64,000 nt of DNA from Apium graveolens (taxonomy: Eukaryota; Streptophyta; Magnoliopsida; Apiales; Apiaceae), in assembly GCF_009905375.1 (NCBI RefSeq), contig NC_133653.1:92739671-92803670 (forward strand), in the 5' to 3' direction. Every line of letters starts with the position of its first letter. Position 1 is the first letter of the stretch. Positions 14,294 through 44,653 of this stretch are shown here, piece by piece. Position numbers and translations under genes: made by a program. The notes under the pieces were generated by a model. It worked only from the letters and a program-made list of their open reading frames with translations. It searched no databases and was not told the origin of the DNA.

Positions 14294-17200
14294 GTAGTTG
14301 AATGTTTGAGCTAGTAGGTGTAATGGCTTGGGCCTGTTGGATTTGGATTGATTGGGCATTTTACTTTGAGCCTTCACCATCTTCCTTCTTCTCTTCCTTC
14401 TTCTTTCTTCTTCTTTTATCTCCCCCTTTCTTGTATTCTCTCTTCTTATCTTCTATCTTGCTGCCAGTTGCATTTGAAGGTTGACTTGGATTTGAGCCAG
14501 AAGCTTTTTGATCATTTTTATTTTGCTCATCCTTTGATTTTTGGGCAAATTAATTTCATCATTTTTCATATATCTCCCCAGCAACTGATCATTTCTTCAT
14601 CTTCAACAGTCTTATACTGCTTTGTCTTCAAGTCTGTCTCCAAAGTCATTACCAGCTTCTTTTTTTCCATGACACATTATTTTGGAATTTGGAAATATTT
14701 GCAATGTTTGGTGGTTGGACAGATATATGCCACTTCCTTGCTTGGTTGTAGATATGCTTCTGGAAAAGCAGTTACTTAAGTCTTCTTCAATTCATTTAGC
14801 AAGAGAGTATCTTCTTGAATCACTCTGTTTACTTTATTGATTAGAATGTCCAATTCAGATGCCCTTCTTATTATGAGATAGTTAAAGGACACATGTATAG
14901 ACATGTATACCCCATAGTCATTTATGTTAACAACTATTCTCCTTTCTTGAAATCCATCCACAGTCACCATGATCACCCTTAGAAAATTTACAGTTTTGTT
15001 CAAGGCCTTTTTGTATGTGAAGAAGTTATTGTTTAGAGAAGCCTGAGAGCCTTTAGCAATTCATCTAATTCTCTGCTTAGACTAGGTCCCCCAGCTGCTT
15101 TTAGTAGCCTCTGCATTCCAATATCAACTTGTTGTTCATTGTCCTTAGTTTTGCCTTTTTGAGCTTGGACAGATGACCTTAGAAACCTAGCATCTATCTC
15201 CCCCTTAGTCTTGTTAGCAGGCAAGATGTGACGTGAGGGGATTTCAGGCCTCACAGCTTCTAGAAGTGCATGCAATGGAATGTTTAGAGCACCCATGATG
15301 GCTCCCAAGGCTACTGAGTTTTGCATTTGAAGATGATTATGGGAGTCCACCAGGGTCTGGATATCAGCCTGTTGACTTTGTACCATAGCTGTAAGTTGGG
15401 ATACTTGAGTTGTCAAGAACTCATTGGATGACTGTAAAGTTGAGACTTGAGATTGGAGAGCTTGAATTTATAAGTTTGTGGATCTTGATATTGGTTGGTG
15501 AGATGCTGAAGAGAGAGAGAGAGGTGCCAAATGTAGCTGGTACAGCTTCCCTAATTCCTTCCATCAAAAGAGCAGATGGTTCACATCTAGCCTGATGCAG
15601 TTGATATAGTTTGACCCTGATGTCATTATTATTAGTGATTTGGTGTTGGACAACTTCATGTAAGGCTATACATGATTCCCTCAGATTATTGATGCTCTTG
15701 TCCACAGATGACAAATCAAACTTGGCCATTTTATCTGTAAACCTAGAGAATTTTTGCTTGATGTCCAATTGAGAAGGGATGATCTCATCTAGCTTGTCCT
15801 TGACCAGTTTTCTTGTTTATCTTGATGATCAATCAGAGTCAGTTTTAGAGCTTTACCAATTAGGTGAAAGGATTTAATTTGAGCTTTATAGACATCTGTG
15901 ACTGCATCATAAACTTCTTGTGGACTGAGTATTTTGGAATTGCTCCCAAGAATAGTGATATACTCTTCTTTAAATCTGGCCAAAACCTCATCCATCTCAA
16001 GATTGAAGTCTTTATCCAACCAGGCATCACAGTTACCATCTTGTTCAGATTTATTTACAATATTTATTTGATGTTGTTGAACATCTATCTGATAGGAAAG
16101 CATGATAGCTTGATAATCTTGGTTAAATATATCGATGTAAGAAGCTGTTGAGAAATTTGGGCAATTCAAGACAGCTGATCAACCAATAGATCATTCATTG
16201 TTGTTGGTTGAGCTTCTGCTTCCTGCAGCCACTGAGAGATCAAGTGAGATTATGGTTGAGTATTGCTGGAAGTAGATGGTTGGTCAATTGGATTTGAGGT
16301 GGATGGTAGAGAATCAATAGAACCACCTATGACAGATGCCACAGTTTGACTCACAGGTTGAATTATGGTTATGATAGTGTGTTATTCTCTACTTATGGTG
16401 TGAACCTCTATTGGAATTGGAGGGGAATTGACCAGGTTATTGTCATGGACCTTGGCCTCAAACCCTTGTACTTCTTTCAAAGCACTGTCACTTGAATGTG
16501 ATGTACTTGCCTCCCCCAGAGCAGGATCATTCGTAATTGAACTCCCAACTTCAATTGTGAGTGCAATTTCAGCTAAGGTTTTGAGGAGAGTTATTCCTTT
16601 AAGAGGAACCTCCAATTGAATTGGATAGGATTTAGATAGCTCCCCCTCAGGAGTATTACCCTCAAACCTTACAAACTGTGAAGGTTGATTTGTACATGAA
16701 GGTGCATTTGAAACCACCACAGGGTCTTCAGTAAAAACTGATGAAACCCCTGTGTTTGTGTTGGTGTCATCAAGGTCTACCCTAGAGTGTAGCCTCTCAC
16801 CAACTAAATTTGGGTCCTGGGTGTTAAGCATAGTTTCATGAACCATGTCACTTGATTTTGATAACACTTGAGAGTTAGATTCAAGTATTTGATTATATGA
16901 AGAAGAAATTTTAGATATTAGATTTATGATTTCAGGATTAAGTTTTAACAGCTCCCTCTGAATAGATGAGGGAGCTTCAAAAGATGTGCTCTCTATGTGT
17001 GTGCCATCCTTATTTCTTCTTTCATACACTTGAATGTGTTCAAGTGTTGGTGCAGACTCTGTATAGAGTGCAATAGGGAGAGTTTCAAAAGAGACACCCT
17101 GTTGAGAGGATGCCCCTAGAGTCTGTTTTATGCCCTCTTTTACAACCACATCCTTTTGAGAGGATGCAGAGGTAGCTTGAGTGGTCAACTCAGTTTACTT

Positions 17201-24165: not shown

Positions 24166-24675
24166 TGTTAGGCCCTTAATCAACTGTAGAGGGGGGTGCA
24201 TACAGTTAATACAATCAATTCGACAAAGCTTCAACAGAATCAACAGTTTTTATATTAATAGATAAAAACATATTACAAACGTACTCTGTCAAAAGGATGA
24301 ACAAATATTCTTGAGAGCTGCTAGGTTATGCGAAAGATATAACAATGTCGCAATGCTTATAGCATGAACCTAATATGTGCTTTATATAGAGAACATCTAC
24401 ATAATATATAAGGAATCATATTCTATTAACAACAAGGAAACCTATACAATGCTTCTGAGGTAAAGTCTTTCACCGCCTTGAGTTCCTGTTTCCTTTTCCT
24501 TATCGAAGATCAACTGATGTGACCAACAGTGATTACATCATCCATTGACATCATCATCCGTCGATATCATTATATGTCGATATCATCATCCGTTGATGTC
24601 ATCATCATCCGTTGATATAAGTTCTGATGTGAACTTCTGATAGTTTCTGCTTGATATCATCAATTGCTTCTAACA
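24166..24675 (-). mobile_element. 3' LTR of copia element Y (510 bp)
   Basis: The + strand runs TGTTAGGCCC ... TTCTAACA, bounded on the right by a polypurine tract and on the left by RNase H of X. The expected TSD is TGAAA (24161-24165); the partner copy would lie beyond 64000 next to the 5' LTR. It contains two ATCCGTTGA motifs (24588-24596, 24607-24615) and the variants ATCCATTGA and ATCCGTCGA. Confidence 0.88.
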
Positions 24676-27253: not shown

Positions 27254-27328
27254 TGTTAGGAATGTATGTGCATTAGTTTGATGATATGTTTAACAAAATA
27301 CTTAAGTAGAAATTTAGTGTCTGTAGCC

Positions 27329-27735
27329 TCAACGGATAAGACCACTTTGGCTATCCGTTGATGGTGTAGCTTTACTTAGAAATAAGTCTAGTGTTGTAGC
27401 ATATTTCAGTCTCTGTATTTAAAATGTAATTCTTGGAAGTTGAGAGAAACTATGAGTCATGTTGACTACTAGATGATATGCAGATAGGAAGGCCAATTGT
27501 AAATACTTCATGCCTTGTAATTTTGTATAAGTGAAGTGGTATCAACGGATGACTTAAAGACCTTCAACGGATGAGAAGCTAAGCTTCAACGGATGTCTCT
27601 AAAGTTTCAACGGATAAAGTCATCAACGGATAACATCCTTCAACGGATGAGTGCATCAACGGATGAAAGCTTCAACGGATAACATCCTTCAATGGATGAG
27701 TGCATCAACGGATGAAAGCTTCAACGGATGTTCGG
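27329..27735 (+). repeat. TCAACGGAT motif array in U3 of the 5' LTR
   Basis: TCAACGGAT at 27329-27337, its complement ATCCGTTGA at 27353-27361, then about ten TCAACGGAT copies between 27542 and 27735 (one mutated to TCAATGGAT), mostly followed by G or A and spaced irregularly by 8-20 bp. The 3' LTR has the same array (about 43650-44057). Related partial motifs (AGCCGTTGA) follow. Confidence 0.9.
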
Positions 27736-27967
27736 ATGATTAGCCGTTGATAAGGGGTTGTTGTACCTACAAACAGAGGCACATGGGTTGATAGAGACAA
27801 CTGAGATGTGGTAGCCGAATTTCAGGAACAACAGAAAAAGCAGCCGTTCTTCTTTAGTACAAAGATGCAATAGTCAACAAAGTACTGGAGTGAACAGGAA
27901 AAGAAGCAAGTGAAGATCTTATTATATTACTGTATTTTATATTGTTCTTCACTTGTACACTTGGTAA

Positions 27968-27975
27968 TATATAAA
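27968..27975 (+). promoter_or_regulatory. Candidate TATA box of the 5' LTR promoter
   Basis: TATATAAA followed by CCAAG, in the middle of the LTR and downstream of the motif array. The identical site in the 3' LTR is 44289-44296. Confidence 0.6.
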
Positions 27976-28334
27976 CCAAGTAGAAGCTAATAATTAGAAG
28001 AGAGATTTTCCAGAGCTGTTTAGAAAAATATTGAGAGAAAATTCATCTAGTTTGTACTAGGATGCAGCTGTGATCAACATTGTTTAATCACAGATTTTCT
28101 AAAATACCATCTCTGGTGGAACAACAAATCCACCAGAAAAGTTTTTAAGGTCTGTTGTGTTCTTTACATTTGTGCTTGAATATATATCTGTCTGTATTAG
28201 CTTAAAGCAATTCACACACTTGTTCTTCTTGAACACACAACTTTCATAAACTGCTCAAAACTTGAAAAAGTTTTGAGATTTACATTCAACCCCCCTTCTG
28301 TAAATCTCATTGTTAGTCCACTAGGAATAACAAT

Positions 28335-28346
28335 TGGTATCAGAGC
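28335..28346 (+). other. Primer-binding site, initiator tRNA-Met
   Basis: TGGTATCAGAGC, two bases after the LTR end, complementary to the 3' end of plant initiator tRNA-Met; the usual site of plant copia elements. Confidence 0.92.
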
Positions 28347-28393
28347 AGGCTCTTGACATACAAAGAGTTTAAAGATCTTGGAATCTAACAAAG

Positions 28394-29871
28394 ATGAGTA
28401 AGAAGGATATTGGAGTAAAAATCCCAGTTCTTGACAAAGACAGTTATCACCATTGGAAGGTGAAAATGCACCTTCATCTACTCTCCCAAGATGAAGGTTA
28501 TGTAAACTGCATTGAGAATGGTCCTCACATTCCCCACAAAGTAGCAACAGTTGCTACAGCCACAGTTGCTGTTGGTCAATCCATTCCAAAACCTAGAGCA
28601 GAATGGACAATGGAAGACACAGAAGAAGTCCACAAGGATAAAAAGGCTATGAACATTTTGTTTAATGGTCTTAACATGGATATGTTTGATAATGTGATAA
28701 ATTGCACAACTGCCAAAGAGGTTTGGGACACAGTTCAACTACTGTGTGAAGGTACAGAACAAGTGAAAGAAAACAAAATGCAGCTTCTCATTCAACAGTA
28801 TGAATACTTTCATTTTGAAGAAAATGAATCTTTAAATGAAACATTCAATAGGTTCCAAAAGCTGTTGAATGGACTGAAGCTGTATGGAAGAGTGTACCAG
28901 GTGAAGGATTCAAATCTTAAATTTTTAAGATCCTTGCCAAAGGAATGGAAACCCATGACTGTCTCCTTAAGAAACTCTCAAGATTATAAGGACTTCACTC
29001 TTGAAAGATTGTATGGAATCTTGAAGACTTATGAACTAGAGCTGGAACAGGATGAGATATTGGAGAAGGGGAGAAAGAAAGGAAATTCAGTTGCATTGGT
29101 AGCTGAAGATGAGAGGAAATGCAGAAAAGAAACTACAAGATCTACATCAAACTCCAAAGATGGTATAAGAAATCAGGAATCAAGCAAGGGGAAAGAGCAA
29201 GTTGCTGAAAATGAAGACAACTCCAGCCAAGATGACTCAGATGGTATTGATGAGCATCTTGCATTTCTGTCCAGAAGATTTGCAAAGATGAAATTCAAGA
29301 AAAACACTAGAGCCACTAAACCTCACAAAAACACTGTGGACAAATCCAAGTTCAAGTGTTTCAATTGTGGTATAAGTGGACACTTTGCAAGTGAGTGCAG
29401 AAAGCCAACTTCTGAAAAGAAGAAATTTGAACAAGTAGATTACAAAAAGAAATATTTTGATCTACTCAAGCAAAAGGAGAGGGCTTTCATTACTCAAGAA
29501 AGGGACTGGGCAGCTAATGGAGATGAAGAGGATGAAGATGTGGAGTATGTCAACCTTGCTCTCATGGCTGATTCTGAAGAAAATGAAGTTAGTTCATCAA
29601 GCAATCAGGTAATCACTACTGACTTAACACAGCTTACTAAAGAAGAGTGCAATGATGCTTTTAATGACATGTCTACTGAATTGTATCATTTGCGTGTGTC
29701 TCTTAAATCTCTTGCTAAAGAAAATAGTAGGATTAGAGAGAACAATCTGTTTTTAAGTAATAGAAATGCTTTGTTAGAAGATAAGATGATTGACCTAGAG
29801 AAAACAAAGTTGCATTGTATATCTGTTGAAAATGAACTAGCTGAATCTGTTAAGAAAGTAGAAATACTTTC
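28394..29871 (+). CDS. gag: Copia gag, first part (interrupted by solo LTR)
   Basis: Capsid/nucleocapsid precursor that packages the element RNA in cytoplasmic particles. ATG at 28394, 48 nt after the primer site. Visible blocks: DKDSYHHWKVKM (gag N-terminal YxxW-like core), then a UBN2-like region with NCTTAKEVWDTVQLLCEGTE, LLIQQYEYFHFEENESLNE and LKFLRSLPKEW, a basic/acidic linker and one CCHC knuckle, CFNCGISGHFASEC (about residues 325-338). A coiled-coil-like region (KSLAKENSRIRENN...) follows. The frame breaks at 29871 where the Tekay solo LTR entered, and continues at 34049 in phase once the LTR and one TSD copy (4177 nt) are discounted. As assembled this gene is disrupted. Confidence 0.92.
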
Positions 29872-31964
29872 TGTAATAACCCCAATTTTTGGAAATTTTT
29901 GAAACCCTTATGAATAGTGTTTTTGCTGAATGAGAAAACTTTTCATGCCACGCTATGTAGGGGTTCTGTTATTGATCTTATGGGATATTATTAGTACTCT
30001 ATGTGGTATATAAGTGTATGTAAAGATCGTCAGAATCCAATTCCGAACACTTTGATTTTTCCCGGAAATCCACAATATACGGAGAGAATTGAGTATAAGG
30101 TAACAGGATAAAAAGGATTTAAATTAAAGGATTATAAGAGAGGATCATAAAAGGAATACAATGTATTGAGAAAGGTTAAGGGAACCTAAGTAATAAGATC
30201 CCGGGTATGATCCTTCAAACGATAAATGAAAGCGAAAGTTAAGCGAACCGTATAACAGATCAGCGGTCATTAGGCAACGATTAGGAAGTTAATCAAAGGG
30301 ATTAATGGGAATGATGTCATCCAACCAATAGAAAGAAGACAAGGAAGGAAGGATGACATCATGAGGATGAGGTAAGCATGACATGGGAAGGAAGGAGGTG
30401 TGGTTGAATAAAAACCACACAAATTCAAGGGCAAGGTAGTAATTTGCTAAATCAAATACAAATCAAGTCAACCAAGCCAAGTAAAAATCATTTCCATCAA
30501 AAAATCAAAACAACCAAGGCATGAGTTCATCTTGCTCACGGCTTTTTAGCATTTTCAAGGCATAGATTTTTCAAAATCAAAGATCAAAGCTTCCTAAATT
30601 GGTAAGAAAATTCCCTAATCATCTTCATGCTTAGTTATGGCTATATCATGAGTTTAATCCATTAATTCTTTCTCTAACTTCTTCATTTAATCAATGAAGA
30701 AGACAATGAATAGTGTTTTCAAGATTTTTAACTTGAAGTTTGTCTTGTTTTCTTGAAGATCCAAGCTTTCTTAAAACTTCTCCAAGCTTCTTAAGGCTTC
30801 CTAGCTCCACCCACCACTTCAAGGAAGGTATACCATTTCCAAACCCTAGGTTCATATATATTATAAGGTGATTTTGATGAGTAGGATGTTATTGTAGCTT
30901 GTTGTTATGATTTAGAGTTTGAGATTTGGTATGGTAGTGAAATGGAATGGTAATTGTTGTGGTTTTGATTTAAAAGAACTTAAGCATGATTAAAGTTAAG
31001 TTTAAGCATAAGTATAAATGATTAAATTGGATTGGTTGGGGTTGTTATGATGTGATAAGGATGGATGTTGGTTGTATGTTGGATTTGAGGTTGATTTGGG
31101 TTGATTGTGGATGGTTTAAAAATTGGAAATCGCGTAAACATAGCCGTCGTAACGTCCGATTTTCTTTGGACTGTTTTTATGCATAGCATCAGAACCCTTG
31201 AACTCACTGCTAGGTTTTGACCATTGCCATGATTAGATAGTTCATGTTACGAGCTTCGTTTTGATATGTAGTTCGTTCGATTCCGATGCACGGTTTAGGA
31301 GAAACGACCGTTTCAAGTAACGGCGTTTCGCGAACGAAACTTTTTCCCTCGCCTTACTTCGAAACATAGGTTAAAGACCGAAAAGGGTTAATTAATGCAT
31401 GAAACATTTATGGTAAGTGTTTTAGGCAGTTGGTAAGTCACTCGCGAAGGAATCGCTTTAAAACTCGTAAAGGTTAAATTATTAAAAATGGTGGAGCCGA
31501 GGGTACCCGAGTGACTTAAGCGAATCAGTGAGCGCAAAACAAGCGTTAGAGTCTAAGTTAGTTAAAGTATAGATTTACAAGTGACTTTGGTTTAATTCCA
31601 ACTTACTTGTTGCTTATAGGTTACCAGACTCGTCCCGAGCCATTCGTAACCCCCAGTCGCTCAGGCAAGTATTCTATCCGTTATACTGTTGTTGTGATGA
31701 ATACACTTGTATATGCATTATCTTGCGATAGATGCATGTTGGTTATTTAGCAAATTCTTGCGATATATTGTAGCATGTGATATGGTATATATGCATGCCT
31801 GTTTCATATTCTTGAAATATATATCTGTTGGTTCAGTTGATAATACCTATGCTAGAGGATAGCGGTAACTTGCATATACCCTTAGTATAGGGACCCAAAA
31901 GGTGAAAATATTTTCTAAAACCGGGAGTCGAGGATCCCGAGTAATCTTATATATATGGATAAGG

Positions 31965-31996
<32 letters not shown>

Positions 31997-34043
31997 ATAT
32001 GGTTATAGTTTTCCAAACTATAAATCGAATAAGGTTTATTCGATAACTTTAACTTTATTTTATTATTGAATATTATTTCGAATATTATTCGAAGGCGTAT
32101 GACTTTTTATTTTATTTATTGAATATTATTTGAATATTCATTTGAGGATGTATGACTCCTTTATTTTATTTAATGAATATTATTTATAATATTCATTCGA
32201 GGTATTATGACTCAGCTTATTTTATTTATTGAATATTATTTGAATATTCATTTGAGGATCTATGACTCCGATTATTTGCTGAGATATATTCTTTATTTTA
32301 TTAAAGAATAAGGTGTAAATAATCAAACTTATTTTCGATTATTCAAATAAAGATAATACTTTCATATAAGTATATCTTTGGTTATTTAATACTCGTTTCA
32401 AGTATAAATTTTAATACTTCTACTTCAATTATTTTTTTTATAAAGATTATTCTTTATGGGAATATTATTTAATTAATAATATTCAGATATTTTCTAATAT
32501 TCTGGGGACTGATTTACTTCATTAAATCAGCTTTACTCCAAACACTCTTTAAAGTGTTTTCGAGTCTTCAAAACGATTTTTAAAAGTCAGAGCGGATCCC
32601 AAAACTCATTTTTATATTTAAGATCTTCCTTTTTTTAAGGGGATTTAAATACTCGCTCAAAACCTGGGGAATCCGGCTCTGTGGTGTATTTTATATTCGC
32701 AACGAGGTTGCTGTTTTGAGAAAACAATTTGATTACTTGCCCAATGTTCGGGAAGTAAGTCCATTTGATTGAGTCGGCATAAGCGACAGGCCGGGGTACG
32801 GTCTATTATTGTGTAAGTGGCTGGGTGGCAGTCCATCAACGCGTGAGGGGCCGGGGTACGGTCGAGCGCGAGGTCCTAATGCGGCCAGGGTGATGACCGG
32901 TGAGGAATTCATCCATCTACAGTAGAAAAGGTTACTTATTGGTATCTTTGCCTGATCAGCGAGATATCGGGTTTATGCCAAAATTCTTTTCCTTTCCAAA
33001 ATTCATTGGATGTTTCAAACTCTGTTCATACTTTGCATAAAAGAGATTCCAGGAAATGTTTAAAGGGATATATATATGTGGATATATATATATCGGGACT
33101 AAATAAAGTATCTCATAACTTTTTCATTCAATAATATTTCAAAGATTGAATCTATTCAAGTCTTATCTTGTGGTCTCATCAGTGGGATGAACTTTTGAAA
33201 CTGATTATAACTTGAATGGTGGTAGTTCAAGTAGTATTGGGAAAGATATAAGTATATTAGGGTATTTGGTAACCTCATCTTTTAAACTTATATCTAATTA
33301 ATAATTGTCTTATGAATGACAAAGATTTTCAGAAAAACGTTGAGACAAGGTTAGATATATGAGATCACCTTGCAACGATATTTTTATACAGTTATACACT
33401 GGGATTTTGTGTATATTATGCATGGAAGAGGACTTCCAATATTTTGAAAAGTATATATGTATATATACTGAATATTTTGCGACTTCATCGCATTAAGATA
33501 TCAAACTTGGTTCATTTCTTTTGACCAAGATTTTCATGAGTATTATGAGTAGACTCATATACTATTAATCATTATACATATTATTTTGGTGGGCTTGCTG
33601 CTCACCCTTGCTTTCTTCTTTCATCACACAACAACAGATAGAAAAGATGAACAGAACCAAGCTCCCGATTCGCAAGCGATTAGGAGACGTTCCGCAGTTT
33701 TCTAGAAGCATTGATGCCGCCGTAGCTGAGGTAGGAACTACCAATAGGCTAGGCTTTCAACTTTTGATGGACCAGATTTATTTATATTTATGAATTGTAA
33801 TAATGGCAAAGAAATGTAAATTTATTCAGAAAACCTTTTAAGGTGTATTGGCAGATAATTATGGAATAAAATGACTTGTGGTTATTTTTGGATGTTCATC
33901 TCTGAGACTATAACGTGTGGTGTGTGTGTTTATTGTGGGGTCACAGTACAGAGTAGTTGAGTAATTATTAAGATTGGGTGTTATTAAGGGAAATGGAACT
34001 CGTGACGACCCGGATCCCCGACCCCGGATCTGGGGGTGTTACA
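29872..34043 (+). mobile_element. Tekay-type solo LTR inside gag (4.17 kb)
   Basis: TGTAATAACCCC ... GGGGGTGTTACA with TSD CTTTC (29867-29871 and 34044-34048). No internal region. It is clearly diverged from the LTRs of the complete Tekay element at 47542-61309, so it belongs to a different subfamily or source. Contains a TA-rich microsatellite (about 31965-32000), four 55-bp tandem repeats and a small ORF (ATG at 33647, stop at 33791-33793). Confidence 0.95.
32062..32280 (+). repeat. Four tandem repeats of about 55 bp in the solo LTR
   Basis: Each unit has a TTGAATATTATTTGAATATT-like core, then a conserved TATGACTC element followed by TTATTTTATTTA. Same module as at 4010-4170, with four copies here against three there and two in the LTRs at 47542 and 57296. 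Confidence 0.82.
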
Positions 34044-34048
34044 CTTTC

Positions 34049-34985
34049 CAATCAATTAGAGAAAGAGCAAGAGGTGATTAAAGCCTGGAAGACATCTAGG
34101 GATGTAAGTGCTCAAATTGCTAAGGTCCAAGGAATTGAATCATTCTGTGAAACTGCCTGGGATAAAAATAAAAAGAAACTGGAATTAATTGATGGGCTGT
34201 CAACGGATGTGGAATCAACGGATGATGAAAGTTATCCGTTGAAGGAAGAAAAGGAGCATCCGTTGAAGGTTCCTCAATCAAAACAGGCAGATGTTTCTAA
34301 AAGAGAGAATCTAAAGAAACTCAACAAAAAGTTTGGTTCAACTTCAAAGAACTTTGTCAAAGAAGAAGCAAGCACATCCAAAGATGTCAGTAAGGTGAAT
34401 GTAGGGCACATGACCTTAGAACAGTTAAATAATAGGCTCAAGATGGTTGAGGATAAAAAGGAATCTAAAAGAAAATCCAACAGAAATGGGAAGGTAGGAG
34501 TTAATAAACACAACAATTACACACCTGATAGGTATGCTCCTAGAAAAAGCTGTGTGCATTGTAGTAGTGTTAATCATCTATCTGTTAATTGTAAATCCAT
34601 TAAGAAGACTCCTATAACTGTACCCTCTTCTATGCCTAATATGTCTGCATCACCTCTGCATGCTATGCCTGTTATGTCTCAACAAAATCCTTATGCACAT
34701 TTTGTAAACATGCCATATTTTAACAATCCTTATCTTGCTGCATTTAGTATGCCTCAAATGCCATACAATATGCCCATGTGGAATGACATGTTTGCACAAT
34801 CAATGCCTAATAATTTTACAAATGTGATAAATGATTCTGTGACTAACCCTACACCTCAACCAACTACATCTAAGACCAAGGTTGACTCAAACTTACCTAA
34901 GTCTAAAGATGCAGGAGGAATGAAGTCTAGGAGAAAGGCTAACAAGAATGGACCCAAGGAAACTTGGGTACCAAAATCAAATTGA
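34049..34985 (+). CDS. gag: Copia gag, second part
   Basis: Continuation of gag after the solo LTR, in the same frame: SNQLEKEQEVIKAWKTSRD and onward. It includes a linker built from the dispersed motif (STDVESTDDESYPLK from TCAACGGAT and its complement), Lys-rich segments, a second CCHC-type knuckle CVHCSSVNHLSVNC (about 34550) and a Met/Pro/Asn-rich tail (MPNMSASPLHAMPVM). Ends at TGA 34983-34985. Two knuckles this far apart are unusual; the second may act with pol processing or in RNA binding. The pol frame has its own stop (34987-34989) just after, so gag and pol are not joined by simple readthrough. Confidence 0.85.
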
Positions 34986-34998
34986 TTGATTTTATGGT

Positions 34999-37900
34999 GT
35001 GCAGGGAAATGGAAGAAATCTATGGTACTTGGACAGTGGTTGTTCAAGACACATGACAGGAGATTTCTCCCTGCTCACAGAGTTCAAGGAGAGAGCTGGC
35101 CCTAGCATAACCTTTGGAGATGACAGCAAAGGGTTTACTATGGGATATGGCTTGATTTCAACAAGGAATGTCATCATTAATGAAGTTGCATTAGTTGATG
35201 GTCTCAAGCACAATTTACTGAGCATCAGTCAACTATGTGATAGAGGGAATACAGTTTCCTTCAATTCTGAAGCCTGTGTTGTCACTAGTAAGAAAGACAA
35301 CAAAGTGGTTCTAACTGGAGTTAGAAAAGGAAATGTGTACATAGCTGACTTCAACTCTACAGATGCAGAATCCATTACTTGTCTCTTCAGCAAAGCAAGC
35401 ACAGTTGAAAGTTGGCTATGGCACAAGAAGCTATCTCACTTGAATTTCAAGACAATGAATGATCTAGTCAAAAAGGACTTAGTTAGAGGAATCCCTCTAG
35501 TTGAATTCTCAAGGGATGGTTTGTGTGATGCTTGTCAGAAAGGCAAACAAAGGAAAGCATCATTCAAAAAGAAGCTTGAAACAACAATTGATGAACCATT
35601 ACAGCTGCTACATATGGACTTGTTTGGACCAGTCAATGTATTGTCTATTGCAAGAAAAAGATATTGCTTAGTGATTGTAGATGATTTCTCAAAGTTCTCA
35701 TGGGTCTATTTTCTTGGATCAAAGGATGAAGCAAGTGAAATCATTATCAATCACATCAGGCAAGTCAACAATCATCCTGACTTGAAGGTTAGAAATATCA
35801 GGAGTGACAATGGAACTGAGTTCAAGAATTCGACATTAAGGCTGTTCTGTGAAGAAAATGGAATCATGCATGAGTTCTCAGCTCCAAGAACACCTCAGCA
35901 AAATGGGGTTGTTGAAAGAAAGAACAGATCTTTAATTGAAGCTGCCAGAACAATGCTTGAAGAATCAAAGTTACCAACATATTTCTGGGCTGAAGCTGTT
36001 AATTGTGCCTGCTTCACTCAGAATATTTCTTTGATCAATCAAGCTAAAGGCATGACTCCTTATCAGTTGTTCAAGAGAAGAAAACCAACTCTAAACTTTC
36101 TTCATGTCTTTGGATGTAAATGCTTTATACTGAGGAATCAATCTGACCATAAAGGGAAGTTTGATGCAAAGGCTGATGAAGGGATATTTGTTGGTTACTC
36201 AGCTGGAAAATCTTATAGGGTCTACAATCTAAGAACCAACATTGTTATGGAATCTGTGCATGTTGTGTTTGATGATAAAAAGATTGATGGACTAACAGAT
36301 GAGGGACATAATGAGAAACTCAAATTTGATAACATTGAGATATATTGTGATGATAGTGAAGAGGAGACTGATGGAGATGACACTTCAAAAGGGATTCAAA
36401 ACATGCCCTTGGATAATGCACAAAATACTGCATCCGATGATAGAGGCAATGCAGTATCCGTTGACAGACATAGTGCATCATCCGTTGAAGTACAAAATGA
36501 AGCATCTGTTGATCATAGTTCATCAACGGATAATCGATTTACATCATCAGTTGATAGAACTCCAAGTTCCCTGCAAAGGACCAACAACTCAGGGGGAGTT
36601 TCAACCAGTCAACACTCTGTCTCACATCATGACAATACTGAGGCCACCTCATCTAGAGCACATCTTCCACCACAAAGGAAATGGACCAAGAATCATCCCT
36701 TTGAACTGATCATTGGTGATGCATCATCTAAAGTGCAAACAAGAAAAGCCACTCAAGATGAATGTCTGTATAGTAGTTTTCTGTCTCAGGAGGAACCTAA
36801 GAAAGTGGAAGAAGCTCTATTGGATCCAGATTGGATATTAGCTATGCAGGAAGAGCTGAACCAATTTGAGAGAAACCAAGTATGGAAGCTGGTACCCAAA
36901 CCAAAGAACAAGAGTCCTATTGACACAAAGTGGGTATTCAGAAACAAGATGGATGAAAATGGCATTATCATAAGGAATAAAGCCAGACTGGTTGCTAAAG
37001 GCTATTCTCAGCAAGAGGGAATAGATTTTGATGAAACATATGCTCCTGTTGCAAGACTTGAAGCCATCAGAATATTTCTAGCCCATGCAGCCCATGCCAA
37101 TTTCAAAGTCTATCAAATGGATGTCAAGAGTGCATTTCTAAATGGGAAATTAGAGGAAGAAGTATATGTAAGTCAACCTCCAGGATTTGAAGATCCAAAT
37201 TTTCCAGACTATGTGTATTATCTGTTGAAAGCACTCTATGGACTGAAGCAAGCACCTAGAGCCTGGTATGAAACCTTATCAAAATTTCTTTTGGAGAATC
37301 ACTTCACTAGAGGTACTGTTGATAAAACTCTCTTCTTTAGGGATGTTAATGGCTCTAGTATACTTGTTCAAATTTATGTAGATGACATAATATTTGGCTC
37401 TAAAGATGATAAACTTTGCAAAAAGTTTGCTAAGCTAATGCAAAGTAATTATGAAATCAGCCTAATGGGAGAACTAACCTATTTTCTTGGTTTACAAGTT
37501 AAACAAGTTAGTGATGGAATTTTCATTAGTCAAACTAAATATATTTATGATCTTTTAAAGAAGTTTGACTTAATGGAATGTTCATCTGCAAAAACTCCCA
37601 TGGCCACTGCCACCAAACTTGAATTAAATAAGACTGAAAGGTCTGTGGATATTACAAGTTATAGAGGCATGGTTGGTTCACTTTTATATTTAACTGCTAG
37701 CAGACCAGATATAATGTTTGCTACATGTCTATGTGCTAGATTCCAAGCTGATCCTAGGGAGTCTCACTTAATTGCTATCAAAAGGATTTTCAGATATCTC
37801 AAGGGTACACCAAATTTAGGTATTTGGTATCCTAGAGAATCTGGCTTTGATCTAATTGGTTATTCAGATGCAGACTATGCAGGTTGCAAAATAGATAGGA

Positions 37901-38319
37901 AAAGTACAACAGGCTCCTGCCAATTCCTGGGAAACAAGCTTGTATCATGGTTTAGCAAAAAGCAAAATTCAGTCTCTACTTCTACAGCTGAGGCTGAATA
38001 CATTGCTGCTGGAAGTTGCTGTTCTCAAGTGTTATGGATGAGGAACCAACTCCTTGACTATGGACTTCATGTTGATAGAATTCCTATCTTTTGTGACAAC
38101 ACAAGTGCCATAGCCATAACAGAGAATCATGTGCAGCACTCAAGGACCAAGCACATTGATATCAAGTACCACTTCATTAGGGAGCATGTCATGAATGGTA
38201 CAGTGGAACTACATTTTGTTCCAAGTGAACAACAAATTGCTGACATATTTACCAAGCCACTTGATGAATCAACATTCACAAGATTGGTAAGTGAGCTAGG
38301 TATGCTTAATTACTCTTAA
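34999..38319 (+). CDS. pol: Copia pol polyprotein: protease, integrase, RT, RNase H
   Basis: 1106 codons without a stop. Domains in order: aspartic protease with [12 protein letters not shown] (D12-S13-G14); integrase zinc finger WHKKLSHLN (H142) ... CDACQKGK; integrase core [15 protein letters not shown] (D270) and the E of [13 protein letters not shown]; a disordered linker rich in the dispersed motif (36420-36560); RT with [23 protein letters not shown] and YVDDIIFG (Y793); RNase H with GYSDADYAG (Y955), [12 protein letters not shown] and DIFTKPLDE. All key residues are present, so this copy could supply enzyme if expressed. The frame opens at 34990 and its first codon in the range given is GTG, not ATG, so expression needs a gag-pol mechanism (see findings). 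Order INT before RT marks Ty1/copia. Confidence 0.95.
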
Positions 38320-38879
38320 AATTCATGTCTTTATTGCAATTTGAATTGAAGCCTGAAATATATTAGTTGCCAAGAACAAATTTGACTTTTAACATAGTTT
38401 ATTCCATCAACGGATGTTCCCTATCCGTTGAAAGTCAAAATTTCTCTATCAACGGATAGTCATTATCCGTTGAAAGACAAATACATTTCTGGAATTTTTA
38501 TCCGTCAACGGATAAAACTGAAGTACCTTTCAACGGATGACAATTTGCCTTATCCGTTGAAATGTCACATCAATCGATTCAGGTGTTTAACAGCCGTTGA
38601 TTCTATTCTCTTAACCGTTGATACTCATACATACATCTGTATGTATTGGTTTTAAAGGTAGTTTTTAGAATACTTACAGTTTATTCTTAAACGGCTGAAA
38701 TTCACTAACGCATATTTATTGATAAATCTTTCTTTCATATTTTTGTTTATTAAATTGAGAAATCATATAAGTCCTTCTGATTGTTCATTTTTACTTTACG
38801 CTTTCTTGAAATTTCAAGCATTTACCATTTTCTCTCTGCAAAAACTTCAAGTTATTCTCTGCAATTTCTACTCACAAAA
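38320..38879 (+). promoter_or_regulatory. Pol-ORF3 spacer with inverted TCAACGGAT/ATCCGTTGA pairs
   Basis: Seven exact motif copies in 38407-38560, set as inverted pairs. 38407-38415 pairs with 38423-38431 (7-nt loop). 38449-38458 pairs with 38464-38473 (5-nt loop). TTTTATCCG 38496-38504 pairs with CGGATAAAA 38509-38517 (4-nt loop). 38530-38538 pairs with 38552-38560. Truncated copies (GCCGTTGAT, ACCGTTGAT) follow near 38593-38625. No ORF is supported before the ATG at 38880. Probably the leader or promoter of ORF3; the role is inferred from position. Confidence 0.75.
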
Positions 38880-41800
38880 ATGGCACCAGTCGTGAAGATT
38901 ATGTCTCAATCTGGGTTCATCTATGAAAAGAACAATTTCATAGCTTTGGTAGAAAAGAATGAAGCCCACTCAGACTATCACAAAATGATGGACTTCATCA
39001 AAAACTGTAAACTTAGCTATGCAATGCTGGAAGCCCCAACAATTTTCTGTGAAGTAGTTGAGGAGATTTGGACAACTGCTGAGTTCAACTCCATGGATAT
39101 GACTATCTCCTTCACTCTCAAAGGTAAAACTCACTGTATTAACTGTGATGATTTACAAGCATGTTTTAAATTGCCTGAGAACAATGCCATGACACCACAC
39201 ACTGATAGTGATGTATCCAGCATGTTAGATTCCATAGGTTATTCTCTTAACTCTGCTAATTTAGGGAGTATTAGAAGAAAAGGCCTTAGGAAAGAATGGA
39301 GTTTCCTTGGGGATGCCTTTATAAAGGTTTTCTCTGGGAAAATTAGTAATTTTGATGCCATAACTTCATCTCTGGTTAATATGCTCTATATGCTTGTTTC
39401 TGATAGGTATTTTAACTTTAGCAACTATGTGATGCTAGAATTAGGTACTAGATTGGGTAACAAAGCTAATAGACCTAATAACATCTATTATGCTAGATTC
39501 TTTATGTTATTGGCTAACCATGTTGCTGAAGGTTTAGTCATAATCAATGAGAATAATAAACTCAAGTGCTGGGCACAAGAGAAAAGAGTTCTTGCAGACT
39601 TGAAGAGAATGGATCTTAACAGCAGTGTGCCATTGGTATATTTACCAATCATGAATGCACCTCAGGTAGGTGAGGTAATTGCTTCTACAACTCCTACTTC
39701 TTCCAACCTCTCTATTTCTTTATCTTCAAGTGTGGCCATGAAATCTGTGATGCCCCAACAGATTTCTACCAAGGTCACCAAAACTAAACTTTCAAAATCC
39801 AAGACAAAGAAATCCACCTCTGTTGTTTCTCAAAAGACAACAGTTGTAACACCAACTATTAACCCTGAGGTGAGTGAACAGGGTGTGAGTGGTGAGGGGA
39901 GGGGTGAACATCAAAGAAACCCCCAGGATAAGGAAGGAGAGTTGAGTGCTTCCCAAGCTAGCCAAGCCACAGTTTCTCAAAAAGCTGTGGTGGTTGAAAA
40001 GGTATCTAGCACATCCCTAGTAGCATCCTCCCAAAAGGATGTTACTATTGAAAATAGTTCCAAACCAGGAACACAGAACAAAAGAGGGAGGGACACTAAA
40101 GCCAAACACTCACCAACAAAAGCCTTTATTAGAAGAAAGAAGGCCAGAACCCAATCTTCTACACAGGGTGCACACACTGCACAGATACATCCATCTGTAT
40201 CTATGCCTTCTCAAACTCAGTTTGATGTGACTCCAATAAATGTGGAGTCACAGCCCCATTCTCTCACAATAATCACACATCAATCACCAAACACTTCATC
40301 ACCATCTCTGGATGTGGATATGTTATTCCCATCAATTCCTGATTCTCCCTCTTTACAACTCAGGGAGAAGCCCCACTCAAATACAGGTGATCATCATCTC
40401 TTAGATGATTTGTTGGATCACCCGCAAATTCTTTCAGATATAATTGAAGGATCTGTGTCACCACATCTCAAATCAATCTACACAGATTCAACAGTTATAT
40501 CACTTTCAATTTCAACTTCTTTTCCTTCTTCAACGGATATCACTCATTTGTTGACAAGTGGTTGTTCTTCAACGGATAAGCTTAACAGCAGTTATCCGTT
40601 GATAACATCAGTTTCACCTTTAACGGATATTCCACATCCGTTGACAGTCTCTACACAAATAACTGAATTAATCCCAAGTGTAGAAGACATGAATACTGTG
40701 CAATCACTCTTAGGATTGAGGGAAGGGAGTGACAATTTGAGTGAGAGGCTGGGTTGCTCCCAGGCAAAAGGAGAGATTGAGAGCTCAAAAATGCATGCTA
40801 TTTCTTCCAGCATGGCAAAAGTAAGTGAGTGGAGTACCACCTTAGTAGGTGAAGGTGAGGGAGTGAGATGTGTGAGCCAGGGGGAGCCCCTGATGCAAGA
40901 ACATAGAGAAAAAGAGAGAAAAGCAGGTACAGTAGATACAAGGGTGGAACCAGCCATTGCTAATGAGTCAATGATTGTGGATGATGCTGAAAAGGAAAGA
41001 CAATTTCAGCAACATTACAAAGCTGTAATTGATAACATTTCCTTGGATGCTGACACTTTTACTCATCCTGTGACAGCCTATCAACTGGTGGCTGCTCAGG
41101 GCAATGAGGAGGCAGAAAGGTCACTACATCTAGTGCACACAACAGAATCTCTTCAAAGGGATAAAGCTGCCATTACCAAAATGCCTTCTACAGCTGGTGA
41201 GCCATCTGAGGAATTTGGAGCAAATTCTGATGATGATGACTCTATTTCTTTTGATGGAAGCATGGACTTAGGGGGAGATGAAGGCCCTAGTTCAATTCCA
41301 AATCTACCTGAATGGGCCTTGACTAAGGAGTATAGATCAGGGGAATTCAATGTCTCTTTAGTCAAACAAATCAACACTATTCAACAGGCCATTCAGAATA
41401 CTTCACATGCAAGTATCAAGGCTATCCTTCAAGCTCACCTGGACTCACTGCATCTCATCAAGCTGCAGCAAGTGAAGCAGAATCTGAGTATGGATGATCT
41501 CAGGAAGGATATTGCTGACTTGAAAACCTATACTTCAGAAAAATTGGATTCAGTCATGCCCTATGGTACATTGCAGGACTTGGTTTTGAGATTGAAGAAA
41601 GAATCTGTTACTGAAAAACGGTTGGCCAAGTTAGAAGACAGAGTTCAAGTTATTGAAGATTCTGTGGCCACCATTCTTCACAATCAACAATCTCAAACCA
41701 GTCTCCTAATGCAGCTGGCAAAAGCACAAGGCTTGACCCCTCTCCTTGATGATAACAAAAAGGGGGAGAGTAAAAGGGAAGGGGAAGGAGAGCCATCTAC

Positions 41801-43385
41801 AAAAGTCAATATATCTAAAGTGCTAGTTCTTGCCATCACTACTTCTCCAATCATTCAAATCAAGGGCAAGCCTGATGGAATTGATTTGATTCAGCTAGCA
41901 GCAGCTGAAATTCAAGTGAAAGAACAAAGGAGGAGAATTGATGAAAGGTTGCAACTGTTGTTTGGTTCTACACAAGACAAATCAACATCTGTGAAATACA
42001 GCACAAAAATTGAACCAATCAACATGGAGCTCATGCCAGTAGGGAGTCATAAGGATGGAGAAGCTTCTTCCAAAGAACTACAAGCTATAATTCTCAAGCC
42101 CAATGAAAGATCCAATAAGGACTCAACAAAGAATCCTTTAAAAGAAGTGGACTTTCCTCCTCCAAAAGCTGATGAGAACAAGATTTTAGGCAGGAGTATT
42201 GCTTATCTCAAAAAGACCATGGATGAGGCTGTAAGGAGAAATAGAGCTATTATCATTAGAGAGGGAAAGAGCATATGTGTGATGCAAGGACATCCCAAAT
42301 TCTCAATAGCCAAGAAGGAAGAAGACAAGCAATTAAAGGCTGACAAAAGAGCACAAGCAAAGCTTGAACAACAGCTAAAGTCAAGTCTAGTTGAAAAAGA
42401 AAAAGGGATTGAAGTCAGGGGTGAAGACAAGACTACAAACCTAGATGAGGTTTTAGGGAGTATATTTGGTGAGAGTGTGGAAGAAAGAGAGGAATGGCAG
42501 AAGGGAAACAGAAGAAAGGCCAAGGCACATAGAAGGAGTGGAGATAACACTGAAGTAACCAAATCTATATCTAAACCACTACCTTCCATACCTGAACCCC
42601 TTGTTGCTGATCCCACAATAAACATCCATGGTGAACCAATCATTCCAAAAGAGGAACCTATTGATTGGGACACTATCAAATTGCCTACCTTTCTAACCAC
42701 TCTTCCACTACCAAAGAAACAGAAAAGAAAACCAAAATCTACACCTCCCATAACCTCTAAGAAATTCACTCAAAAACAAAAACCTAAGCCTAAGTCACCC
42801 ATTTCTAAAGATGATTATGTTCACATCTGTGACATAAAAGAAATTTCAGACATTGAACTCTATCTGGATGAGCTGGAGGATGTAAGGGGAATAGCTGCCT
42901 ACAGACAGCTACCAGAGAGATTAGTGTTCAGATATAAAGGAGCTGGGGAAAGAACATGGCCTCTCCACAGGATTCTGGATGAAGGCTACTCTACCTTGAT
43001 TAGAGTCTATTCAGCTATACAAAAGGATTCTGGCTTTACCAGAACTGCCAAGACTGAAATTCTCAACAAGATAGCCAATATAAGGAAAACTTGGAGGGAG
43101 CCCAATGCTTTACCAAGGACTTTACTCATTCAAGAAAGGGAAATGAAAATTCACAAATCACCTCATTGGTTGATGGAATTTAGAGATGATAAAGGAGTCA
43201 GAAGATTTTTCAGACTTGAAGACCAACTCAAGATTGCCAGCAATGAAACTCTCAAAGAAATGCAATCTAAGTTGGATGTCAGTATTGAAGATGAAGCTGA
43301 ATTCTTCAGACAACTCCAACTCCAAATTGAGGAAAATGACAAAAGGCTAGGAAAGAAAACCAGGGAACAAAGAAGAAAAAGATGA
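38880..43385 (+). CDS. ORF3: large extra ORF downstream of copia pol (function unknown)
   Basis: First ATG in the frame is 38880 (AAAAATGG context); the frame is open further upstream but without ATG. 1501 aa. Residues 1-270: conserved domain shared with Y ORF3 (EKNNFIALVEKNEAH; RRKGLRKEWSFLG; SNFDAITSS; NNIYYARF). Then Ser/Thr-rich disordered linkers with VSQKAVVV/SSQKDVT repeats and a motif-derived stretch (40530-40644); an acidic patch; a coiled coil (about 41350-41740) ending LLDDNKKGE; RAIIIREG (about 42240); an NLS-like KKQKRKPK (residue 1279 on); a charged C-terminal domain ending REQRRKR. I see no signal peptide or membrane span, so the env-like label often used for SIRE does not fit on sequence. 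A nuclear or nucleic-acid-binding role is inference. Intact frame in a young element suggests it was maintained. Confidence 0.9.
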   Translation: MAPVVKIMSQSGFIYEKNNFIALVEKNEAHSDYHKMMDFIKNCKLSYAMLEAPTIFCEVVEEIWTTAEFNSMDMTISFTLKGKTHCINCDDLQACFKLPENNAMTPHTDSDVSSMLDSIGYSLNSANLGSIRRKGLRKEWSFLGDAFIKVFSGKISNFDAITSSLVNMLYMLVSDRYFNFSNYVMLELGTRLGNKANRPNNIYYARFFMLLANHVAEGLVIINENNKLKCWAQEKRVLADLKRMDLNSSVPLVYLPIMNAPQVGEVIASTTPTSSNLSISLSSSVAMKSVMPQQISTKVTKTKLSKSKTKKSTSVVSQKTTVVTPTINPEVSEQGVSGEGRGEHQRNPQDKEGELSASQASQATVSQKAVVVEKVSSTSLVASSQKDVTIENSSKPGTQNKRGRDTKAKHSPTKAFIRRKKARTQSSTQGAHTAQIHPSVSMPSQTQFDVTPINVESQPHSLTIITHQSPNTSSPSLDVDMLFPSIPDSPSLQLREKPHSNTGDHHLLDDLLDHPQILSDIIEGSVSPHLKSIYTDSTVISLSISTSFPSSTDITHLLTSGCSSTDKLNSSYPLITSVSPLTDIPHPLTVSTQITELIPSVEDMNTVQSLLGLREGSDNLSERLGCSQAKGEIESSKMHAISSSMAKVSEWSTTLVGEGEGVRCVSQGEPLMQEHREKERKAGTVDTRVEPAIANESMIVDDAEKERQFQQHYKAVIDNISLDADTFTHPVTAYQLVAAQGNEEAERSLHLVHTTESLQRDKAAITKMPSTAGEPSEEFGANSDDDDSISFDGSMDLGGDEGPSSIPNLPEWALTKEYRSGEFNVSLVKQINTIQQAIQNTSHASIKAILQAHLDSLHLIKLQQVKQNLSMDDLRKDIADLKTYTSEKLDSVMPYGTLQDLVLRLKKESVTEKRLAKLEDRVQVIEDSVATILHNQQSQTSLLMQLAKAQGLTPLLDDNKKGESKREGEGEPSTKVNISKVLVLAITTSPIIQIKGKPDGIDLIQLAAAEIQVKEQRRRIDERLQLLFGSTQDKSTSVKYSTKIEPINMELMPVGSHKDGEASSKELQAIILKPNERSNKDSTKNPLKEVDFPPPKADENKILGRSIAYLKKTMDEAVRRNRAIIIREGKSICVMQGHPKFSIAKKEEDKQLKADKRAQAKLEQQLKSSLVEKEKGIEVRGEDKTTNLDEVLGSIFGESVEEREEWQKGNRRKAKAHRRSGDNTEVTKSISKPLPSIPEPLVADPTINIHGEPIIPKEEPIDWDTIKLPTFLTTLPLPKKQKRKPKSTPPITSKKFTQKQKPKPKSPISKDDYVHICDIKEISDIELYLDELEDVRGIAAYRQLPERLVFRYKGAGERTWPLHRILDEGYSTLIRVYSAIQKDSGFTRTAKTEILNKIANIRKTWREPNALPRTLLIQEREMKIHKSPHWLMEFRDDKGVRRFFRLEDQLKIASNETLKEMQSKLDVSIEDEAEFFRQLQLQIEENDKRLGKKTREQRRKR

Positions 43386-43564
43386 TTTGCTCAGACTAAA
43401 GGAGTGTCCTTGGAAACACTGTAAATCTTCAATTACCTCCTAGTACATACACTTTTGCAGCATTTTTAAAATTTCTACTTAGTTTCAATTCATATATCTG
43501 TTAAGTGTTTTGTTATCATCAAGTTAACCCTGAATTTATGCCTACAATTCTTATAGACATAAAT
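43386..43564 (+). other. ORF3 3' untranslated segment
   Basis: About 180 nt between the ORF3 stop and the polypurine tract. No ORF, repeat or other signal seen. Confidence 0.5.
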
Positions 43565-43574
43565 AGGGGGAGAT
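43565..43574 (+). other. Polypurine tract of the SIRE-like element
   Basis: AGGGGGAGAT immediately before the 3' LTR start TGTTAG; same core as in X, Y and Z. Confidence 0.9.
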
Positions 43575-44653
43575 TGTTAGGAATGTATGTGCATTAGTTT
43601 GATGATATGTTTAACAAAATACTTAAGTAGAAATTTAGTGTCTGTAGCCTCAACGGATAAGAACACTTTGGCTATCCGTTGATGGTGTAGCTTTACTTAG
43701 AAATAAGTCTAGTGTTGTAGCATATTTCAGTCTCTGTATTTAAAATGTAATTCTTGGAAGTTGAGAGAAACTATGAGTCATGTTGACTACTAGATGATAT
43801 GCAGATAGGAAGGCCAATTGTAAATACTTCATGCCTTGTAATTTTGTATAAGTGAAGTGGTATCAACGGATGACTTAAAGACCTTCAACGGATGAGAAGC
43901 TAAGCTTCAACGGATGTCTCTAAAGCTTCAACGGATAAAGTCATCAACGGATAACATCCTTCAACGGATGAGTGCATCAACGGATGAAAGCTTCAACGGA
44001 TAACATCCTTCAACGGATGAGTGCATCAACGGATGAAAGCTTCAACGGATGTTCGGATGATTAGCCGTTGATAAGGGGTTGTTGTACCTACAAACAGAGG
44101 CACATGGGTTGATAGAGACAACTGAGATGTGGTAGCCGAATTTCAGGAACAACAGAAAAAGCAGCCGTTCTTCTTTAGTACAAAGATGCAATAGTCAACA
44201 AAGTACTGGAGTGAACAGGAAAAGAAGCAAGTGAAGATCTTATTATATTACTGTATTTTATATTGTTCTTCACTTGTACACTTGGTAATATATAAACCAA
44301 GTAGAAGCTAGTAATTAGAAGAGAGATTTTCCAGAGCTGTTTAGAAAAATATTGAGAGAAAATTCATCTAGTTTGTACTAGGATGCAGCTGTGATCAACA
44401 TTGTTTAATCACAGATTTTCTAAAATACCATCTCTGGTGGAACAACAAATCCACCAGAAAAGTTTTTAAGGTCTGTTGTGTTCTTTACATTTGTGCTTGA
44501 ATATATATCTGTCTGTATTAGCTTAAAGCAATTCACACACTTGTTCTTCTTGAACACACAACTTTCATAAACTGCTCAAAACTTGAAAAAGTTTTGAGAT
44601 TTACATTCAACCCCCCTTCTGTAAATCTCATTGTTAGTCCACTAGGAATAACA
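43575..44653 (+). mobile_element. 3' LTR of the SIRE-like element
   Basis: Same length and sequence as 27254-28332 except four single-base differences. Motif array about 43650-44057, TATA at 44289-44296. Followed by TSD AGCAT (44654-44658) and then ORF3 of Y. Confidence 0.94.

Follow-up and report, generated by a model that had tools for sequence, protein, structure and literature searches.

The element and its repeated word

In a window of 64,000 nucleotides from celery (Apium graveolens, contig NC_133653.1 of assembly GCF_009905375.1, positions 92,739,671 to 92,803,670), we studied a retrotransposon, W, that carries many exact copies of one 9-bp word, TCAACGGAT, in its long terminal repeats (LTRs), in its coding regions and in the spacer between pol and a third open reading frame, ORF3. 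The other celery loci with which W was compared are designated E1 to E5 or by L-numbers. The two LTRs, of about 1080 bases each, differ at 4 positions, in agreement with an earlier annotation of the same letters (the sequence-only reading), which had called the element young, and a 5-bp target-site duplication, AGCAT, flanks W on both sides. The features of the element are compiled in Table 1.

Table 1. Features of W in window coordinates; the orientations of the words are given from left to right.
Feature	Position	Strand	Remarks
W, whole element	27254..44653		
5' LTR	27254..28333	+	TGTT...AACA; 12 exact TCAACGGAT, followed downstream by a TATA-like box at 27968
Inverted word pair near the 5' LTR start	27329..27361		Word search
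LTR array, 10 exact words on one strand	27542..27729	+	Spacing 16-22; a single gap of 33, where the copy is TCAATGGAT
TGGTATCAGAGC, primer-binding-site-like, just inside the 5' LTR	28335..28346	+	Sequence
gag, first part	28394..29871	+	Retrotran_gag_2, zinc knuckle; broken by an insertion
Nested insertion in gag	29872..34043		TG...CA, 5-bp duplication CTTTC, 0 words
gag-linker cluster	34200..34266		Words + + - -, read as STD, STD, YPL, HPL
pol	34999..38319	+	Integrase core, RVT_2
pol cluster, SH3-like domain to RVT_2	36456..36531		Words - - +, read as SVD, SVE, STD
pol-ORF3 spacer cluster	38407..38560		7 words; two inverted pairs 16 bases apart, 7 bases between
ORF3, env-like position	38781..43385	+	Open for 1534 codons; first MAPVV at 38880; no Pfam family
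ORF3 linker cluster	40530..40644		Exact words + + - -, read as STD, STD, YPL, HPL
Polypurine tract AGGGGGAG, then AT/TG junction	43565..43572	+	Sequence
3' LTR	43575..44653	+	13 exact words

Judged from its sequence, W is classified as a Sirevirus-like Ty1/copia element. Gag and pol are of the copia type, with Retrotran_gag_2, gag_pre-integrs, rve and RVT_2 all exceeding the Pfam cut-offs, and the polypurine tract (PPT) described for Sireviruses in PMC2829016, AGGGGGAG followed by AT/TG, lies at the 3' LTR (43565-43576). Sireviruses are also marked by several PPT copies grouped ahead of the 3' LTR; in W, one exact AGGGGGAG octamer is present in the terminal linker, and more are found at 36591 in pol and at 40879, 41270 and 41761 in ORF3. 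TGGTATCAGAGC resembles a primer-binding site. This copy is not intact, since its gag is interrupted; the 4.2-kb insertion has no repeats of its own of 60 bases or more and has the appearance of a solo LTR from a different element.

The window contains 45 exact copies of TCAACGGAT, against 0.18 expected, and 43 of them lie inside W, with the remaining two at 24588 and 24607. They are distributed over the LTRs (12 in the 5' and 13 in the 3' copy), gag (4), pol (3), the spacer (7) and ORF3 (4), with none in the nested insertion and none in the leader plus the first gag part. Thus 32 of the 43 copies in W are non-coding and 11 coding, while in E1, which consists of two pieces, 14 of 39 are coding. 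One-mismatch copies accompany the pol cluster (36432, 36504 and 36546) and the ORF3 linker cluster (40620), and the corresponding ORF3 cluster of E1 has six exact words of alternating orientation. All gag, pol and ORF3 positions given by the sequence-only reading are exact matches, as are its seven spacer copies; its estimate of about 11 copies per LTR was of the right order and slightly low.

To what extent these numbers exceed expectation was determined with two null models. Codon-preserving shuffles, in which no more than 2 copies ever arose in 1000 runs, gave means of 0.071 for the gag part, 0.101 for pol and 0.060 for ORF3, where 4, 3 and 4 copies are seen. A first-order Markov null, with at most 1 copy in 500 runs for each region, gave 0.004 for either LTR and 0.008 for the spacer. 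The word is therefore enriched in gag, pol, ORF3, the spacer and both LTRs. In coding regions it is read in several frames and both orientations as STD, YPL/HPL or SVD/SVE (STD, YPL and SVD had been described by the sequence-only reading), and the accompanying proposal, that pressure acts on the DNA word and not on the peptide, is well supported by the codon-preserving nulls and by the use of both orientations.

Conservation and replacement of the word among celery families

E2 represents a subfamily that is 79-86% identical to W over long matches and is known from two pieces, one of which (L042) includes 729 N. Between E1 and E2, identity within the words is 54/54 in ORF3, 36/36 in pol and 34/36 in gag, against 147/210, 187/225 and 137/172 outside them; between W and E2, the spacer gives 61/63 against 234/314. 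Defining the words from one member of each pair favours identity, and the comparison was for this reason repeated with half the flank rate as expectation, which still leaves 4 word differences between E1/W and E2 where 22.8 are expected (Poisson P 1.7e-6). For this pair, the comparison of sequences points to clear purifying selection on the words.

A second line of evidence comes from a sister clade within the same genome, in which the word has been replaced. The reverse transcriptase (RT) regions of the two clades are 84-88% identical in DNA, and a tree of nine RT sequences separates W, E1, E2 and L066 from E3, E4, E5 and L065, with local support of 0.988 for the latter group and of 0.853 for the W clade against L064 plus that group. 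Counts of TCAACGGAT and of YCGACGGAT are 43/0 in W, 39/0 in E1, 41/3 in E2 and 15/1 in the internal region of L066, against 0/23 in E3, 0/18 in E4, 0/13 in E5 and 0/3 in the internal region of L065. The three YCGACGGAT counted under E2 have coordinates before its LTR start, and the one in L066 is a TCGACGGAT in its spacer. The sister word comprises TCGACGGAT and CCGACGGAT, with 10 and 13 copies in E3, 8 and 10 in E4, and 0 and 13 in E5.

The sister words lie at homologous positions in gag, the pol linker, the spacer and ORF3; the LTRs of E3 and E4 also hold copies of YCGACGGAT, and only short pieces of these LTRs align to that of W. From an alignment of 25 word sites, 14 internal ones could be compared, the other 11 having no recognisable word, or no letters, in one of the clades. 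At these 14 sites, from which copies with more than two mismatches were dropped and for which one rule of admission was a degenerate word allowing A or G at position 3, 51 of 52 copies of the first clade have A there and 38 of 40 copies of the sister clade have G. T occupies position 1 in 51 of the 52 copies of the first clade, whereas the second is divided between T (20) and C (20); position 5 is C in 51/52 against 27/40, and the remaining positions, 4 and 7-9 among them, are nearly unchanged. Over all aligned linker columns, W and E2 are 55-63% identical to E3 and E4. In ORF3, the 16-base flank between one pair of switched words is unaltered across the clades. The reading frames of E3 and E4 are broken in the sampled copies; the amino-acid identity of E3 with W is 65-71% for pieces of gag, 74-87% for pieces of pol and 44-47% for ORF3.

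These observations add to the case for the DNA word over the peptide, since the word is kept above its flanks between E1/W and E2 and is switched at homologous sites, both coding and non-coding. They also bear on the possibility that the copies are a functionless product of tandem duplication and gene conversion. The LTR spacing of 16/17/22 and the 24-base steps in the pol linker suggest tandem duplication at those places, and E4 has an additional pol unit. However, the copies in gag, the spacer and ORF3 have unlike flanks and both orientations, the words are conserved above their flanks between E1/W and E2, and the switch affects dispersed sites in four internal regions and in the LTR array, which a local duplication does not produce; we consider duplication without function very improbable. 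The sequence-only reading had regarded the absence of enrichment, the absence of the word from related copies, or an origin of all sites in one local duplication as fatal to its proposal; instead, the word is enriched, is present in other copies and does not trace to a single such event.

The peptides read from the words were compared in the same manner. In the W clade, the ORF3 linker has STD from one strand and YPL/HPL from the other, and the sister word is read as PTD (STD in gag) and YPS (HPS in gag). The coding sites follow the DNA word and not the peptide, YPL becoming YPS. Selection on the protein for a short linker repeat would agree with the recurrence of S-T/V-D in the pol linker at 8-codon steps. 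It is, nonetheless, the least credible of the explanations weighed here: one word yields STD, YPL/HPL or SVD/SVE depending on frame and orientation, the words of the LTRs and the spacer are non-coding, YPL gives way to YPS under the sister word, and the counts are beyond the reach of codon-preserving shuffles. Chance, peptide-level repeats and one local duplication, each as sole cause, are rejected by the nulls, the word switch and the conservation.

Linker read-outs from ORF3 homologues were listed for those of 62 proteins that match a short pattern. P0002 has three STD and three HPL/YPL, and the carrot homologues P0042 and P0046 have three STD and three HQL, which, at the protein level, would fit a third word, probably TCAACTGAT, in carrot. 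P0048, with PMD and HPS, predicted the word CCGATGGAT, which was found exactly at three forward sites of L073; its reverse sites are not as predicted, two being TCGACGGAT and CCGACGGAT and the third an incomplete match. In this check, the peptide read-out therefore proved right at forward sites only.

Known repeat systems and the candidate reader

The LTR repeats and those preceding ORF3 are of an already known kind, the RM boxes of Sireviruses, which Bousios et al. (2010, PMC2829016) describe, in the accessible text of their paper, in the LTRs of 13 elements. Linker RMs occur there only in the nine elements with an env-like gene, and 77 of the 79 linker copies precede this gene; two elements have additional copies at the start of ENV. 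Neither the env-like genes nor the RM boxes had a proven function in that paper. Like W, these elements have many near-identical short copies with a CGG core and an element-specific sequence, which precede a TATA-like box in the LTR and the env-like gene in the linker; the elements also share with W the PPT AGGGGGAG and its AT/TG junction. The RM unit is a palindrome with a CGG-CCG core, whereas that of W is a non-palindromic 9-bp half-site holding CGG, and palindromes arise in W solely from pairs of inverted copies facing one another. RMs are reported in the LTR, the linker and, in two elements, the ENV start, whereas the words of W are also in gag, in the integrase-RT linker and in the middle of ORF3. 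Relative to what is accessible of that report, the copies in these three places and the word switch in the sister clade are new. In a literature search, the titles and abstract openings of the papers listed gave no sign that words of this sort had been described in coding regions of Sireviruses, or anti-silencing for a Ty1/copia protein, although subscription papers were largely outside its reach and absence in print is not established.

The sequence-only reading had compared the word to the motif bound by VANC proteins in VANDAL elements. According to the accessible parts of Hosaka et al. (2017, PMC5735166) and Sasaki et al. (2023, PMC10398659), a short motif (of 9 bases for VANC21) occurs at high density in one family and differs between related families, and arrays grow by tandem duplication. 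Celery elements likewise carry a dense, family-specific short motif that differs in related families, and co-evolution of an element protein with its word is proposed for both systems; unpublished VANC-target co-evolution is mentioned in the consulted part of a 2026 meeting report (PMC12859917). VANDAL elements are not Ty1/copia, and W is; VANC21 motifs are described as mainly non-coding, whereas the words of W, although 32 of 43 are non-coding, are also in coding linkers; VANC proteins have DUF1985/DUF287, and ORF3 has no Pfam match to either; and VANC binding and demethylation have been demonstrated, while W is known here from its sequence. VANC is thus a working analogy for ORF3 and not a statement of membership.

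Starting from the enrichment, the conservation between subfamilies, the two orientations and the switch at homologous sites, we favour, with a probability of about 0.5, the explanation that TCAACGGAT is the recognition word of a co-diverging binder that is most likely encoded by the element. The word would be a cis-acting double-stranded DNA signal, a half-site variant of the Sirevirus RM, and its spread over the whole element, coding linkers included, would allow a sequence-specific DNA-binding protein to load along each copy. Word and binder would have diverged jointly between sister families, with TCAACGGAT in one, YCGACGGAT in the other and probably TCAACTGAT in carrot. The best candidate for the binder would be ORF3, and the likely purpose a family-specific activation or counter-silencing of the element's own copies, comparable to that of VANC for VANDAL elements. 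Our confidence decreases along this chain: the word is very probably a selected DNA feature, it is likely read by a sequence-specific protein, the odds that the element itself encodes this reader are about even, and a VANC-like role of ORF3, drawn by analogy, is a tentative suggestion. Three observations point to ORF3: linker RMs are associated with env-like genes, one genome contains two words, and ORF3 has diverged more than gag and pol.

Binding by host transcription factors, for example of the MYB type, whose core is AACNG, could instead drive the LTR promoter, with the internal copies serving as further enhancers. The LTR array does lie upstream of a TATA-like box, and AACNG is contained in TCAACGGAT and in the carrot word presumed above. 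In addition, the published RMs mainly matched stress-factor sites in the PLACE database, according to the accessible text of PMC2829016. The sister clade, however, uses at the same places of the same host genome a word, YCGACGGAT, that lacks AACNG, and the need for a promoter alone explains poorly why the linkers of gag, pol and ORF3 should keep enhancers that entail amino-acid changes. We regard host factors as unlikely, though the strongest of the competing explanations.

If the genomic RNA formed hairpins at the inverted pairs, serving its packaging, the control of translation or the production of small RNAs, the gag, spacer and ORF3 clusters, which hold such pairs, would be expected to fold better than their shuffles, and they do so by a wide margin (z -7.7 for gag, -5.4 and -5.8 for the two spacer pairs, -4.4 for ORF3). 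The densest cluster, the LTR array, whose words all point the same way, shows no folding (z +0.6), and folding of the pol cluster is weak (z -1.8). Furthermore, decay at the inner CpG on the sense strand is symmetric, with 37 C>T, which preserves pairing, against 41 G>A, which breaks it, in a count that includes related copies repeatedly; and a dimeric DNA binder predicts inverted half-sites equally well. RNA structure, which accounts for some clusters only, is therefore improbable as the general explanation, and a reader of double-stranded DNA accounts for all of them.

Several results weigh against a DNA word read by ORF3. Repeated at half the flank rate, the conservation of words appears weak between E1/W and L066 (8 differences against 15.2 expected, P 0.034) and absent between E3 and E4 (3 against 4.0, P 0.43, for gag, the spacer and ORF3, with pol left out). 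Among 21 Heracleum ORF3 homologues listed, 17 have a linker that reads STK, without the word pattern; P0022 has the pattern in part, and three lack the stretch. Word class tracks the phylogeny of the elements, and gag and pol segregate with the word as well as ORF3 does. Pfam searches found no match to a DNA-binding domain, DUF1985 or DUF287 in the whole ORF3 (E 0.001) or in its two end parts (E 10), nor to the two DUFs in P0001, P0003 and P0006 (E 10) or in six distant homologues (E 1). Only hints below threshold were obtained among nine homologues scanned, including Transposase_32 in P0001 and P0003; in the accessible text of PMC11728184, sunflower elements carry extra open reading frames, one of them, from Athila, with Transposase_32. 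Another such hint would, if anything, speak for DNA binding: the distant P0036 matches the Myb/SANT-like MADF family with E 0.0052 and 17.5 bits, below the cut-off of 22. The AlphaFold models obtained for the two ends of ORF3 are too poor for fold searches (pLDDT, the predicted confidence, of 50 for the N-terminal and 59 for the C-terminal part); profile searches of the PDB gave no convincing relative, one alignment yielding nothing and another two weak matches taken as chance.

The separation of the two words is also not absolute. Six further sister-clade loci (L073-L078) have 3-6 YCGATGGAT apiece, and two of them, L076 and L078, hold one TCAACGGAT each. TCGACGGAT has two CpGs, and a single deamination step at the first converts it into TCAACGGAT, while loss of the second gives TCGATGGAT. 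Single exceptions to the clade words are attributed to this simple CpG decay, which can produce them; simple decay does not, however, account for 43 copies that uniformly retain the second CpG.

That the word is retained in coding linkers and replaced at the matching sites of the sister clade argues strongly for the existence of a reader. With two words and two ORF3s available, each pair serving as a specificity control for the other, the question of the env-like gene becomes one of binding. If ORF3 is the reader, targeting of the VANC type would have evolved in retrotransposons too, the RM boxes and env-like genes of Sireviruses would be two halves of one system, and celery elements would be split into families that do not cross-react. 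Such an independent, VANC-like self-recognition, in which ORF3 binds its family word over the whole element and co-evolves with it, is an analogy that we put forward as conceivable, with the balance somewhat against it.

Word-bearing LTRs and additional observations

Throughout the 3.33 Gb celery genome, to which all genome-wide word counts refer, TCAACGGAT occurs 405,245 times (202,789 + 202,456), against 31,150 (15,507 + 15,643) for the reversed word. The sister words are similarly abundant, with 160,570 TCGACGGAT against 8,571 reversed and 167,710 CCGACGGAT against 2,365. The neighbour control TCYACGGAT, two words summed, gives 19,229, and its own reversed control 57,594.

To sample carriers, 20 LTRs of contig 1 were taken from among the first 100 places of a Sirevirus PPT pattern (4,621 + 4,539 genome-wide). 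The sample is non-random: nine LTRs, L043-L051, were chosen because their junction base is a rarer one, and the other eleven, L052-L062, are a consecutive series of the common type. Nine of the 20 have 6-12 exact TCAACGGAT (L051, L052, L054-L057, L059, L060 and L062), two have 1-2 (L053 and L058) and nine have none. Other words are over-represented in some of these LTRs: AAGTCGACT/ACTAGTCGA in L043, ACTTGCGCC in L044 and CATCCGTCG (reverse CGACGGATG) in L061, and no word exceeds its shuffles in L045. L043 and L044 represent Sirevirus-like families whose LTR words are unrelated to TCAACGGAT; in the 10 kb upstream of the L043 LTR, an internal region (L063), the word of that family has no exact and 1 one-mismatch copy. 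TCAACGGAT, TCGACGGAT and TCGATGGAT are mixed in the LTRs of L053 and L058, so that either word could be ancestral. A looser cluster in the window outside W (24510-24615), which includes two TCAACGGAT, TCGACGGAT, TCAATGGAT and TCAACTGAT, with GATGATGAT adjoining, resembles this LTR family.

The C-terminus of ORF3 (42807-43385) has a block, LPERLVF, WPLHRIL and RRFFR, that is common to celery, Heracleum and carrot and has no Pfam match. In the public gene models P0016, P0017 and P0026, pieces of ORF3 are joined to kinase, kinesin or pentatricopeptide repeat (PPR) domains; these fusions are probably annotation chimaeras. Elsewhere in the window, two open frames on the minus strand (8017-8823 and 16382-17188), both of 268 amino acids and 8.4 kb apart, probably belong to a duplicated or repeated element.

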